Shown here: in pieces, positions 2,884 to 43,759 of the stretch
Layout of the letters: the number at the start of each line of letters is the position of its first letter
Position numbering within the stretch: the first letter of the stretch is position 1
DNA from: Bradyrhizobium erythrophlei
GTDB lineage: Bacteria > Pseudomonadota > Alphaproteobacteria > Rhizobiales > Xanthobacteraceae
DNA length: 64,000 nucleotides
Direction of reading: 5' to 3'
Assembly (NCBI RefSeq): GCF_900129505.1
Contig: NZ_LT670818.1
Span: 496,001 to 560,000, forward strand
The notes under the pieces: generated by a model
What the model saw: only the letters and a program-made list of their open reading frames with translations
Told to the model about the DNA's origin: nothing
Databases searched by the model: none
Program-made: the position numbers and the translations under genes

Positions 2884-2890
2884 AGCCGTG

Positions 2891-3006
2891 TTCCGAGGGG
2901 AGCTCCGACGAGGAGCTGAGATACCGCAAGCTTGAGACCTCGCATTGAGGCCTAAAGACCGCGGTGACCCTTTGAACCTGATCCGGGTCATGCCGGCGAA
3001 GGGACA
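2891..3006 (+). promoter_or_regulatory. TPP riboswitch (THI element)
   Basis: The conserved THI-box parts are present in order: GAGGGGAGCTC at the 5' end, GAGCTGAGATACCGC, and then GACCCTTTGAACCTGATCCG with GTCATGCCGGCGAAGGGAC. These are the pyrimidine- and pyrophosphate-sensing arms of the TPP aptamer. The element ends three bases before the thiO ATG, and the purine-rich 3' end (GAAGGGACAGGG) is also the thiO ribosome site. Control is therefore likely translational: TPP binding closes the P1 stem and hides the ribosome site. Confidence 0.96.
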
Positions 3007-3009
3007 GGG

Positions 3010-4026
3010 ATGTACCAGAGTTCAAAAGCCCCGAAGGGGGATTCGCACGTATCCATCATCGGCGCAGGCATTGCCGGCGCCTGGCAGGCGCTGCTGTTCG
3101 CGCAGGCCGGCTACCCCGTTACGCTGCACGAGCGCAGCGACGAGGCGATGATGCTTTCCACCAGCCACTGGGCCGGCGGCATGCTGGCGCCGTATTGCGA
3201 GAGCGAGGTCGCCGAGCCGGTCATCAGCCGGCTTGGCTTGCACGCGCTCGATTTGTGGCGCCGCGAACTGCCGGATACCCCGTTCAACGGCTCGCTGGTG
3301 GTGGCGCATAGCCGCGACCGCAACGATTTCGAACGCTTTGCGCGGCGCACGTCAGACTACCAGCGCCTGGATGCCGAAGGCCTGGCTGAACTCGAGCCCT
3401 CGCTCGAAGACCGTTTCCGCGAGGGCCTGTTCTTCGCCGCCGAAGGTCATGTCGAGCCACGACGGGTACTGCCGAAGCTGCACGAACGCATCATCGCCGC
3501 CGGCGGCACCATCAAGTTCAACAGCGACGTGTGCTCCGAGGATCTCGACGGCATCGTGATCGACTGCCGCGGCCTTGCCGCGCGCGACATCCAGCCCGAG
3601 CTGCGCGGCGTCAAGGGCGAGATGATCCTGATCGAAACCTCTGAGGTCAAGCTGGCGCGTCCGGTGCGGCTGATCCATCCGCGCTGGCCGCTTTACGTGA
3701 TCCCGCGCGAGGACAATCTGTTCATGCTCGGCGCCACCTCGATCGAGGCCGAGGATTGGGGCGTCAGCGTCCGCTCGGCGCTGGAGCTGCTGGGCGCGGC
3801 CTATGCGGTGCATCCCGCCTTCGCCGAGGCGCGTATCGTCGAATTCGGCTCGGGCTTGCGGCCGGCGTTTCCCGACAATCTGCCGCGCATACGCATCGAG
3901 AAGAACAACATCGCGGTGAACGGCCTCTATCGCCACGGCTTCCTGATCGCGCCGGCGCTGGCGGAACTGACGCTCGGCTATGTCGAGCGCGGCCGGATCG
4001 ACAACGAGGTGATGCAATGCGTGTGA
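3010..4026 (+). CDS. thiO: ThiO, FAD-dependent glycine oxidase
   Basis: The product has 338 residues, normal for the family. It oxidises glycine to iminoglycine (dehydroglycine) for thiazole synthesis with ThiG and ThiS. The Rossmann FAD motif IIGAGIAGAWQ is at about residues 16-26, followed by VTLHERSDEAMM and the ACTSHWAGGMLAPY-type segment (here LSTSHWAGGMLAPY). The C-terminus has the DAO-family FGSGLRPAFPDNLP and GLYRHGFLIAPAL motifs. It is the first gene of the operon, directly after the TPP riboswitch, and overlaps thiS by 10 bases, so the two are probably translationally coupled. Confidence 0.96.
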   Translation: MYQSSKAPKGDSHVSIIGAGIAGAWQALLFAQAGYPVTLHERSDEAMMLSTSHWAGGMLAPYCESEVAEPVISRLGLHALDLWRRELPDTPFNGSLVVAHSRDRNDFERFARRTSDYQRLDAEGLAELEPSLEDRFREGLFFAAEGHVEPRRVLPKLHERIIAAGGTIKFNSDVCSEDLDGIVIDCRGLAARDIQPELRGVKGEMILIETSEVKLARPVRLIHPRWPLYVIPREDNLFMLGATSIEAEDWGVSVRSALELLGAAYAVHPAFAEARIVEFGSGLRPAFPDNLPRIRIEKNNIAVNGLYRHGFLIAPALAELTLGYVERGRIDNEVMQCV

Positions 4027-10154: not shown

Positions 10155-10580
10155 CAACCCGACGGGCAAATCACCGAAACGCTGTCCAGCCCCGCCGCAA
10201 AAAATATTCCGCTTAACGCGTCGGGCAAATCAGTGCTTTAGCTCCGCGCGTCTCATCCGAATGAGGGGCGGGTCGCGATCGTCACGAACGTTGCGGTGAG
10301 ATGCGGTGGACGCAAAGCGCGCGCGAGACGAGCGCGCGCGATGCGGACGGCGAAGTCGCGTGGTCCTGACGCCCCGACGCTGGCGTCAAGTTTCGCAGGT
10401 GCAGATCTGCGGAGCGACGGTGGCAAGAAAGCCCGGTCACCGGGGAGAGCGCGAAGTAAGCCGTAAACCATCGCGCAGGGAAAGCCGGATGTTTCCGGTT
10501 GAACCTGTGGTCCTACCCCCGTGCTTTTTTTGCACGGGACCCACGGGTGCAATCGGCACCCGGCTTTCCCTGCGCCCTCT
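10155..10580 (+). repeat. Composite structured repeat, copy A
   Basis: The element starts with a segment around GACGGGCAAATCA and AAATATTCCG, continues through GATGCGGTGGACG, GTGGTCCTGACGCCCCGACG, GGTGGCAAGAAAGCCCGGTC and AGCCGTAAA, and ends in a long hairpin. The perfect 16-base arms are 10473-10488 and 10560-10575, and an inner hairpin (CCCGTGC, seven T, GCACGGG) lies at 10518-10538. A second copy in the opposite orientation lies at 36860-37395. Open frames here are not credible proteins. The rest of 9962-11078 holds only this and a type C repeat. Confidence 0.8.
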
Positions 10581-10710
10581 CTTCACGAGGTGGGCGAAAA
10601 CAGACACAAAGCTCGGACGCATCGCGCCGCGAGAACGCGGAGGCATGTCCGCAGGCTGTTTGACAATTGAATCGGAAGTTCACGCCGTTGAATCGGAGGG
10701 TCTCACCCCC

Positions 10711-10858
10711 GTCATGGCCTGCGACAAACGCGAAGCGTTTGCGCAAGGGGAGCGACAGCGACGAAGCAATCCATTACTTCAGCGAGCGGAAAAATGGATT
10801 GCTTCGCGGAGCCTGTCATCGGGCGCGCATACGCGCGACCCGTTGGCTCGCAATGACG
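10711..10858. repeat. Palindromic intergenic repeat, type C, copy 2
   Basis: GTCATGGCCTGCGAC, ACGAAGCAATCCAT and ATGGATTGCTTCGCGG, then GGCTCGCAATGACG. This is the same family as 1741-1850 and 53731-53815, here with a longer centre. Confidence 0.8.
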
Positions 10859-11078
10859 CCGATGGTGATGCGGGAAGTGTGACATCGGCGACACGATGCC
10901 GGCCCTATATTCGCTCATGCGGGTGACATGCGCGTGAAAGGTCGCGGCGTCGACTTGCAACCATCGCGCTTTTGCCGCACCACTTGCAGGCTGGTCCATT
11001 GCAACGATGGGCACCGCCTCGGCAGAGGACACGCCGGGCGGCGTGGGTAACGTTTTGCAACAGGAGAGGAGATTCGTC

Positions 11079-36610: not shown

Positions 36611-36656
36611 GCGGGATTTCGTTTTCAAACGGCCTGCCATCGCAGAAGAACGCCTC

Positions 36657-36858
36657 GCCTCTCCTCTTCTCCCCTCCCACCCGCGAAGCGGCGGGGTCGA
36701 GACGAGCGAAGCTCGCTCTTAGGGGTCGGGGGCGGGGGGTGCCTCGGCAAACTCTTTGCCAGAGAAGTAAACTGATAGACCCCCCACCCCCTACCTCGAG
36801 AGCGAGCTTTGCTCGCCTCGGACCCCGCCACGCGCAAGGGCGCGTGGTGGGAGGGGAG
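36657..36858. repeat. Long inverted repeat (CTCCC-rich)
   Basis: The left arm (CCCCTCCCACCCGCGAAGC, GGCGGGGTCGAGACGAGC, GAAGCTCGCTCT) faces the right arm (AGAGCGAGCTTTGCTCGCCT, CGGACCCCGCCACG, GTGGTGGGAGGGGAG) around a purine/pyrimidine-biased centre. The whole unit can form a hairpin of about 200 bases. Confidence 0.8.
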
Positions 36859-36859
36859 A

Positions 36860-37395
36860 TCACCGCGCACGGCTTCGCGATCTCGCCGCGCGTTTCGCGC
36901 GAGGTTTTACCGGTTCGTTCCGCCCTCCCGCATCAGAGGGCGCAGGGAATGCCGGGCGCCCGATGCGCCCGATAGCCGCGTGTGCAAGGATAGTGGTAGA
37001 ACGCACACGCGTTAGTCAGGTCACACCGGAATCACCCGGCATTCCCCGCGCAATGGTTTTACGGCTTATAACGCGCTCTCCCCGGTGACCGGGCTTTCTT
37101 GCCACCGTCGCCCCTGAGAAATTTGCACCTCAGGAACTTGACGCCAGCGTCGGGGCGTCAGGACCACACGCCTTCGCCGTCCGCCAGCCGCATCGCCCGT
37201 CAAGCGCGCACCCAGCGTCCACCGCATCCCGCTCCGCGTTTCGTGACGTTGCGCAACGCCCCTCTGAGGAGCGGGACGGCGAGGGTTATAAAGGTGATTT
37301 GCCATTTCTGAAAATCCGAATATTTTCCCGAAAGGGGCTAGACAGCAAATTCGATAAACGGACTGATTTGCCCGTCGGGTCACATTCGCCAACCA
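36860..37395 (-). repeat. Composite structured repeat, copy B
   Basis: Read on the minus strand this matches copy A (10155-10580) over its whole length: the GACGGGCAAATCA segment, GGGATGCGGTGGACGC, GTGGTCCTGACGCCCCGACG, GGTGGCAAGAAAGCCCGGTC and the terminal hairpin. The hairpin arms are 37035-37051 and 36940-36956, and an inner 9-bp stem is 36977-36985 with 37003-37011. The arms differ from copy A by one compensatory change and one G-U-tolerated change. The rest of 36611-37476 holds no gene that I can support. Confidence 0.78.
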
Positions 37396-43100: not shown

Positions 43101-43759
43101 GCGGTAGGGACGCGAGTTACCTCCCCCTCCCGCACAGATCCGTACGAGCCCAATTCGGGCATACGGCTGCCGCCTCGGCTGTGTAACGGCGCGTCGTGAT
43201 TCTCACGAGATTCCGTATGCGCTTCAGCGCCTGTGACACGATTCCCCGGTACTGTGCCCGGCCCGTGCTTTGCTGACTCACATTCCCCTCGGCCCCCGCC
43301 CTTGGCTCCACCAACTCCGCAGCCGGTTGCCCGGCCTTGTTCGTCGGCTTCACAGCTACTATGGCGGGGTCAGACTTCTCACGATCGTACATCATCGGCT
43401 ACGGCTCCTCGCCTTCCCGACACGGACCAGTGCTAAACGCATGTGGCGCTGGCCGACCATGAGATCTCCCGGTTCCCGAGCAAAGAGCGTCCGCACATGC
43501 CAGTGTCTAAGACCACGCCGGGTCGTCTTGGGCGCTCGCACCATCGCGCCCATCCGTGTTGCCTTCCGTCACCGGAACGACGTCGGCGCGCAGGATGAGG
43601 GGTACTATCGCGGCTCAATGGCTGGCCTATGCGCTCCCCTGTCAACGCTTCGCCGATGCCCTCGCGGCTATCTGCGCATGACTCGGGGCCGATGCGGTTC
43701 GCTACTCCTTCATCGTGATGGACTTGCACCATCTACTCCTTGCCGGTCTCCCGGCGCAC
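43101..43759 (-). mobile_element. Group II intron lacking most of its reverse transcriptase ORF
   Basis: On the minus strand the element begins GTGCGCCGGGAGACCGGC, then AAGGAGTAGATGGTGCAAGTC, the expected 5' end of a bacterial group II intron. It ends with a domain V-like hairpin (CAGCCGTATGCCC ... GGGCTCGTACGGATC) and a 3' end GTCCCTACCGCGA. In between, only the N-terminal part of the intron-encoded protein remains, giving a total of about 660 bases instead of 2-2.5 kb. It lies between the SnoaL-like and TPR genes and interrupts no recognisable gene. A direct repeat (TACCCC, then GTCAACGGACA or GATCAACGGACA) flanks the 5' side at 43767-43784 and 43859-43877. Confidence 0.72.
43213..43395 (-). 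pseudogene. Intron-encoded reverse transcriptase, N-terminal fragment
   Basis: MMYDREKSDPAIVAVKPTNK, AGQPAAELVEPRAGAEGNVS and QQSTGRAQYRGIVSQALKRI is the N-terminus of the group II intron reverse transcriptase/maturase family. After Arg61 the frame runs straight into intron 3' sequence. The RT palm, maturase and DNA-binding domains, about 400 residues, are gone. The sequence implies one clean internal deletion near 43213. Confidence 0.75.

Follow-up and report, generated by a model that had tools for sequence, protein, structure and literature searches.

About 80 dispersed elements of about 500 bases, found in the 9.18-Mb host chromosome that contains the window (the whole 64-kb stretch of DNA analysed here), probably constitute a multicopy family of structured noncoding RNA genes. 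Two of these elements, designated copies A and B, lie in the window itself, and about 77 additional copies were detected in the same chromosome beyond the pair described in an earlier, sequence-only reading of the window. If this interpretation is correct, many genomes of the host's taxonomic family carry a conserved RNA gene that is absent from Rfam, that reaches dozens of copies per genome in one genus in the genomes scored most fully, and that has been miscalled as hypothetical proteins by gene callers. The element would be a new RNA or, alternatively, a long-lived mobile RNA element of a new kind, and the family offers a test system for the concerted evolution of dispersed bacterial genes.

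Architecture of the two copies in the window

Copies A and B are 74% alike over approximately 400 nt in pairwise alignment, in agreement with the sequence-only reading, which had described two copies sharing some 400 bases in the same order. Both fold far below dinucleotide shuffles (z -6.90 for copy A and -7.01 for copy B). The features of the two copies are given below in window coordinates, together with scores obtained with R1, a covariance model that was built from copies of the host chromosome and describes the core with 176 positions and 44 pairs.

~10158-10660, + strand: copy A, whole element
10158..10249, + strand: copy A, upstream module with CGGGCAAATCA repeats, CTGTCC (10182) and AAAAATATTC (10200), a candidate promoter region of the host-genus type; a similar block occurs in the consensus of the host copies
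10250..10302, + strand: copy A, proposed first helix P1, from alignment, with arms 10250-10256 / 10296-10302 around a conserved GAGGGGCG..TCGCGATCGTCACG module
10303..10474, + strand: copy A, domain I, the multi-branched core, from model R1 (170.7 bits, E 5.3e-32) and covariation
10367-10388, + strand: copy A, TGACGCC/GGCGTCA hairpin of domain I
~10390-10416, + strand: copy A, hypervariable hairpin of domain I
10473..10575, + strand: copy A, long 3' hairpin, arms 10473-10488 / 10560-10575, loop of 71 nt with a nested variable stem
10574..10660, + strand: copy A, 3' tail with two short potential hairpins, ~10574-10595 and 10612-10634
~36860-37395, - strand: copy B, whole element
37226..37395, - strand: copy B, upstream module and most of the proposed P1, from sequence, alignment and fold
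37050..37225, - strand: copy B, domain I, from model R1 (189.4 bits, E 6.6e-36)
36940..37051, - strand: copy B, long 3' hairpin, arms 37051-37036 / 36955-36940, loop of 80 nt

Similarity between the host copies mostly stops inside the 3' tail (10574..10660 in copy A), at a point that differs from one pair of copies to the next. The long 3' hairpin had been described as having arms of 16-17 bases and a loop of 71-78 bases; the arms and the 71-nt loop of copy A are as described, but the loop of copy B is 80 nt long. The changes from A-U to U-A and from A-U to G-U noted between the arms of the two copies are present, and the first of these pairs occurs as UA in 53, GU in 7, AU in 6 and GC in 2 of 68 copies of the host genome, i.e. 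as four standard types. Many arm changes without compensation were looked for among the host copies and were not found, and the 11-bp arm of the 3' hairpin shows a single unpaired cell in 63 distinct rows from the host genome.

Number and condition of copies in the host chromosome

Searching the host chromosome with R1 gave 80 matches, of which 79 reach E 6.1e-19 or better and span the whole model; 150 of 5744 first-look candidates were scored in this search, and weak copies may have been missed. An earlier DNA query had yielded 40 scored matches among 151 candidates, and the core motif, allowing for up to 3 mismatches, matched 69 times in the host genome and not at all in the control. Seven of the copies form a longer subfamily with approximately 200 nt in the R1 region. 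The alignment of host copies comprises 68 of them and leaves out L077, a separate locus that is 96.5% like L076 and has an identical 104-base core. Nearest-neighbour and rank figures cover all 79 copies; the counts for fold, covariation, GU:AC ratio, broken pairs, neighbours, promoters and frames were made without L077, L002 and L087, and mostly without L118-L125.

The copies are not recent and are mostly intact. Nearest-neighbour identity among the 79 copies has a median of 92.1% and a maximum of 96.8%, with none at or above 97%. None of the 44 pairs of domain I is broken in 32 of 67 copies, one is broken in 28 and more than one in 7, and the 3' hairpin has no broken pair in 64 of 68 copies. 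Two damaged copies were noted, one with a deviating 5' half of domain I and 7 broken pairs (L040:1431-1612), the other with approximately 150 nt extra within domain I (L071:1367-1689). With up to 2 mismatches allowed, 3 of 53 5' modules and 1 of 77 3' modules lie away from an R1 match; since the module patterns reach only part of the 79 copies (the 5' pattern about 50), relics may be undercounted in this way. The three lone 5' modules, the first with a weak R1 match, and the lone 3' module are located at positions 6128378, 8304912, 3188925 and 1007720 of the chromosome (G000:C1).

Two positional roles were considered and set aside. For chromosome organisation, the spacing of the 79 copies is random (CV 0.91, compared to a random mean of 0.98), and the leading-strand bias (49/79, p 0.04) is too weak, with origin and terminus only estimated from sampled GC skew. 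For a 3'-UTR or terminator function, the orientations of neighbouring genes are mixed and no single arrangement is favoured: +/- occurs 21 times, -/- 14 times, -/+ 13 times and +/+ 12 times among the 60 classified out of 76 copies, these orientations being approximate because the genes called account for 71% of the window and overlap 4 of the 76 copies.

Fold and covariation

RNAalifold applied to 67 host copies predicted a multi-branched domain followed by the long 3' hairpin. Domain I is made up of a closing helix, an inner helix, the TGACGCC/GGCGTCA hairpin, the hypervariable hairpin and a conserved hairpin. Among the copies of the host genome, 98.2% of cells are paired in domain I and 99.7% in the 3' hairpin. 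Across genera, 94.2% of cells in 53 distinct rows are paired, changes on both sides occur at 35 of the 44 pairs, and the covariation score is 0.374, compared to 0.037-0.097 for slid partners; these figures are favoured by the fitting of the cross-genus alignment to R1. In domain I, base pairing has thus been kept by compensatory change both within the host genome and across genera. The corresponding signal is weaker for the 3' hairpin alone, in which 4 pairs have changed on both sides. This number is attained in 37 of 500 shuffles, since 11 of the 21 pairs of the hairpin are invariant; its remaining measures exceed nearly all shuffles.

A further helix, P1, may exist upstream of domain I. At least 9 bp can be formed by its own arms in 93 of 101 cases and by swapped arms in 405 of 500, and in the minimum-energy fold P1 is formed in copy B and not in copy A.

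Upstream sequences and coding potential

Of 29 copies from other genera, 25 have a consensus sigma70 promoter ahead of the first helix, compared to a mean of 0.15 in base-shuffled sequences. This promoter consists of a TTGACA-like box, a spacer of 16-18 nt and a TATAAT-like box at a fixed distance 5' of GAGGGGCG, and because of this fixed distance a transcription start is predicted near P1. The same positional test was passed by 3 of 72 host copies and by 2 of 24 copies from other genomes of the genus, the -10 box alone being found in 24 of 72 and 0 of 24 copies, respectively. In copies of the host genus the conserved block upstream is another one, containing AAAAATATTC and CAAATCA repeats, and it may serve as their promoter. 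General promoter scoring (score at least 8) separated the sequences poorly from shuffles, with 50 of 72 host copies against 178 of 360 shuffles and 38 of 53 other copies against 117 of 265 shuffles, and the positional test was used instead. Each copy is likely to be an expressed gene. It would be a self-contained noncoding RNA gene some 0.5 kb long, comprising promoter, P1, multi-branched domain, long 3' hairpin and short tail.

A conserved reading frame in the element is unlikely. Core lengths fall into all three classes modulo 3 (26, 25 and 16 of 67 copies), and the three sense frames lack stops in only 0, 3 and 1 of 68 copies, which argues against a protein-coding reading and agrees with the initial impression that the frames are not protein-like. 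The suspicion that spurious proteins have been called from the element also gains support, as the frame of copy B used as a query matched 128 proteins, many of those listed being named "hypothetical protein", and no Pfam domain was found among the 120 listed of these 128 proteins.

Distribution across genomes

Matches were found in 36 of the 149 genomes sampled from the host's taxonomic family, representing 12 of 47 genera; these counts are lower bounds because only 18 candidates per genome were scored and strict filters were applied. Genomes of other genera contain 1 to 8 copies each, on the basis of the same 18 scored candidates per genome, and two relatives that were scored more fully contain 24 and 35. 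In the host's order, matches were found in 9 of 297 genomes, all belonging to the host genus, and in the host's class in 3 of 385 genomes, one of them outside the host's taxonomic family. The latter (G817:C208 and C245, locus L292) stems from a 270-contig assembly with 5% contamination, and this lone match is possibly due to contamination. One exact pattern not of the host type occurs in 21 stretches of named records, whose carriers include Rhodopseudomonas pentothenatexigens, Rhodopseudomonas sp. B29, a Rhodopseudomonas MAG and Hyphomicrobiales MAGs.

No match to copy A was obtained by blastn at 1e-5 in 72,556 plasmids and 50,697 phages. The 5' module does occur on two viral contigs (L260 9930-9953 and L261 8983-9006), near one contig end, with ordinary genes alongside and no R1 match; these stretches are probably host flank, and a link to prophages was discarded.

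Genomic sites and probable homogenisation of copies

Element sites have been gained or lost between genomes. A MoxR-type gene adjoins copy B, and 3' of this gene the element is found in the same orientation and at similar spacing in 9 of 24 other genomes, the MoxR loci of the remaining 15 having no R1 match. Likewise, no R1 match is present beside the gene to the left of copy A in 22 other genomes that have this gene (one locus, L166, is incomplete); in one genome (G154) the element lies beside a gene that is found further right of copy A.

A flank shared with a host copy was found for 12 of 30 copies examined in the two relatives, and on both sides for 3 of them. This comparison covered 30 loci among the 59 copies of the two relatives against 76 host copies, and three further host copies added none. 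In all 12 cases the host counterpart with the shared flank is never the most similar host copy, its rank ranging from 5th to 63rd of 79. Shared flanks with a counterpart that is never the closest copy suggest that the copies evolve in concert, like rRNA genes, or else that elements have inserted repeatedly at the same positions. With both flanks matching at just 3 of these 12 sites, a preference of repeated insertions for certain positions could give the appearance of concerted evolution. The tree, calculated for 58 copies, places copy B with a paralog from its own genome (99/95) and unites the nine copies found at MoxR sites of other genomes in a single clade (100/100); some host copies have copies from other genera beside them. 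A test for mosaic copies found 64 pairs with a similar 3' hairpin and a dissimilar 5' domain, and 1 pair showing the opposite, a signal that is ambiguous since a slower-evolving 3' hairpin would yield the same pattern.

Homogenisation of the copies by gene conversion is likely. The RNA genes would be dispersed over intergenic chromosomal sites in both orientations, many of these sites being old and inherited, with the copies within a genome homogenised by gene conversion much like rRNA operons. Ribosomal RNA operons are likewise structured RNA genes present in several copies and homogenised within a genome; unlike them, the element occurs as about 80 dispersed single units and is not universal.

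An alternative, unlikely in our judgement but deserving serious consideration, is that the element is a non-autonomous mobile element (MITE-like or bacterial SINE-like), whose RNA fold serves its own mobilisation and does nothing for the cell, and whose copies simply persist as insertions. The dispersal of the copies, with neighbours in all four arrangements, speaks for this view, as do the variation in copy number (79, 35 and 24, and 1 to 8 in other genera), the location of several draft-genome matches at contig ends and the emptiness of some sites in relatives (left gene of copy A, MoxR loci). However, none of the 79 host copies has a neighbour at or above 97% identity, lone modules are few, and flanks are common to different species. 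The upstream block has been copied as well, which argues against simple retroposition. Copies within each of eight genomes share approximately 0.1-0.9 kb, and inspection of 1.5-2.5 kb around copies revealed no common partner gene, either by Pfam for 19 neighbouring ORFs or by ORF comparison among the matches listed. A nucleotidyltransferase-like gene and a 211-aa ORF adjoin the element in two genera (L149:2568-4288 and L129:3187-4802). The idea of a parent element was nevertheless abandoned, the search for the nucleotidyltransferase-like gene having found it in only 2 of 36 genomes. Of the options first raised for this sequence, a MITE-like element or a relic of a larger mobile element is thus weaker than a structured RNA; descent of the RNA genes from a formerly mobile element is conceivable.

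Selection on RNA rather than on duplex DNA

The ratio of GU/UG to AC/CA at paired positions is 502:11 in domain I, 79:0 in the 3' hairpin and 206:42 across genera. Omission of pairs that are mostly G-U leaves 184:10, 34:0 and 123:31, respectively, and by column pairs the direction is 23 to 5, 9 to 0 and 27 to 5 with 3 equal; related rows in these counts are not independent. Selection on a duplex would make G-U and its complement A-C equally common, and as G-U is far commoner, it is the RNA and not a cruciform that has been selected. The evidence that RNA structure is under selection in this large multicopy family is therefore strong, and the folded transcript would be the target of this selection. 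The proposal of a structured RNA family is supported by this asymmetry together with the covariation in the host genome and across genera; in the original suggestion of selection on "RNA (or cruciform) structure", the first part is supported and the second disfavoured. A DNA-level structure (a cruciform or REP-like protein site) working as double-stranded DNA would fit the long inverted repeat and its intergenic position, but a palindrome would treat G-T and A-C alike, contrary to the three ratios above, and this explanation is highly improbable.

Relation to known families

Comparison with Rfam 15, which had been recommended on the basis of the window sequence, revealed no family reaching its gathering cut-off at either copy in the window or in ten related loci. 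In a permissive scan of copy A, the best hit was MIR8670, with 27.6 bits against a cut-off of 150, and the others were weaker. The published consensus sequences of Br-REP1 and Br-REP2 were found in 0 of 68 host copies. That the element is a relic of a known element (an insertion-sequence end, a HEARO-type RNA, a piece of a group II intron or a known REP family) is favoured by its repetitiveness alone and, given that no Rfam gathering match, no Br-REP1/Br-REP2 match and no blastn match in plasmids or phages was obtained, is even more improbable than a DNA-level structure.

OLE, GOLLD and HEARO are large ornate bacterial RNAs with a complex fold and a restricted phylogeny; unlike these, the element has no Rfam match and its copy number is much higher. 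The NfeR1 sRNAs of Sinorhizobium meliloti are shorter than the ~500-nt element, and differ from it in having far fewer copies and belonging to another lineage. By description, the two are alike in being multicopy, with hypervariable stems and a kept fold, NfeR1 having six genomic copies and three hairpins according to the available text of PMC7143759. The GTAG and CGTC REP families are also dispersed palindromic repeats, some of them in Bradyrhizobium and R. palustris, with units of 20-40 bp in the accessible description (PMC3733652), from which the element is set apart by its ~500 nt and its multi-branched form. Br-REP1 and Br-REP2, described in Bradyrhizobium japonicum USDA 110 in the available portion of Hahn et al. 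2016 (PMC5082802), resemble the element as intergenic repeats that occur in high copy number in Bradyrhizobium and Rhodopseudomonas and have RNA stem-loops, but are palindromes of 20-40 nt with another sequence. Searches of the open-licence literature by word or sequence string, as far as its searchable text extends, found no description of the element family, and the accessible parts of PMC4842269 and PMC3091675 contain nothing on it.

Possible function and neighbouring sequences

As a family of RNA genes, the elements would most likely provide a structural or protein-binding RNA that acts in trans and whose dose is determined by the number of copies. It is tempting to speculate further that they encode a large RNA machine of a new class, perhaps catalytic or a lineage-specific RNP scaffold, with about 80 concertedly evolving copies taking up approximately 0.4% of the chromosome; we hold this to be doubtful, and somewhat less probable than the mobile-element explanation.

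Both copies in the window are adjoined by GC-rich palindromic repeats of other kinds (36640-36860 and 10700-10870), among them GAAGCAATCCAT-type repeats 3' of copy A. Elsewhere in the window, a TPP riboswitch (RF00059, 70.9 bits) was detected at 2886-3022 on the + strand, and a match to a group II intron domain (RF02005, 159.9 bits) at 43503-43726 on the - strand.
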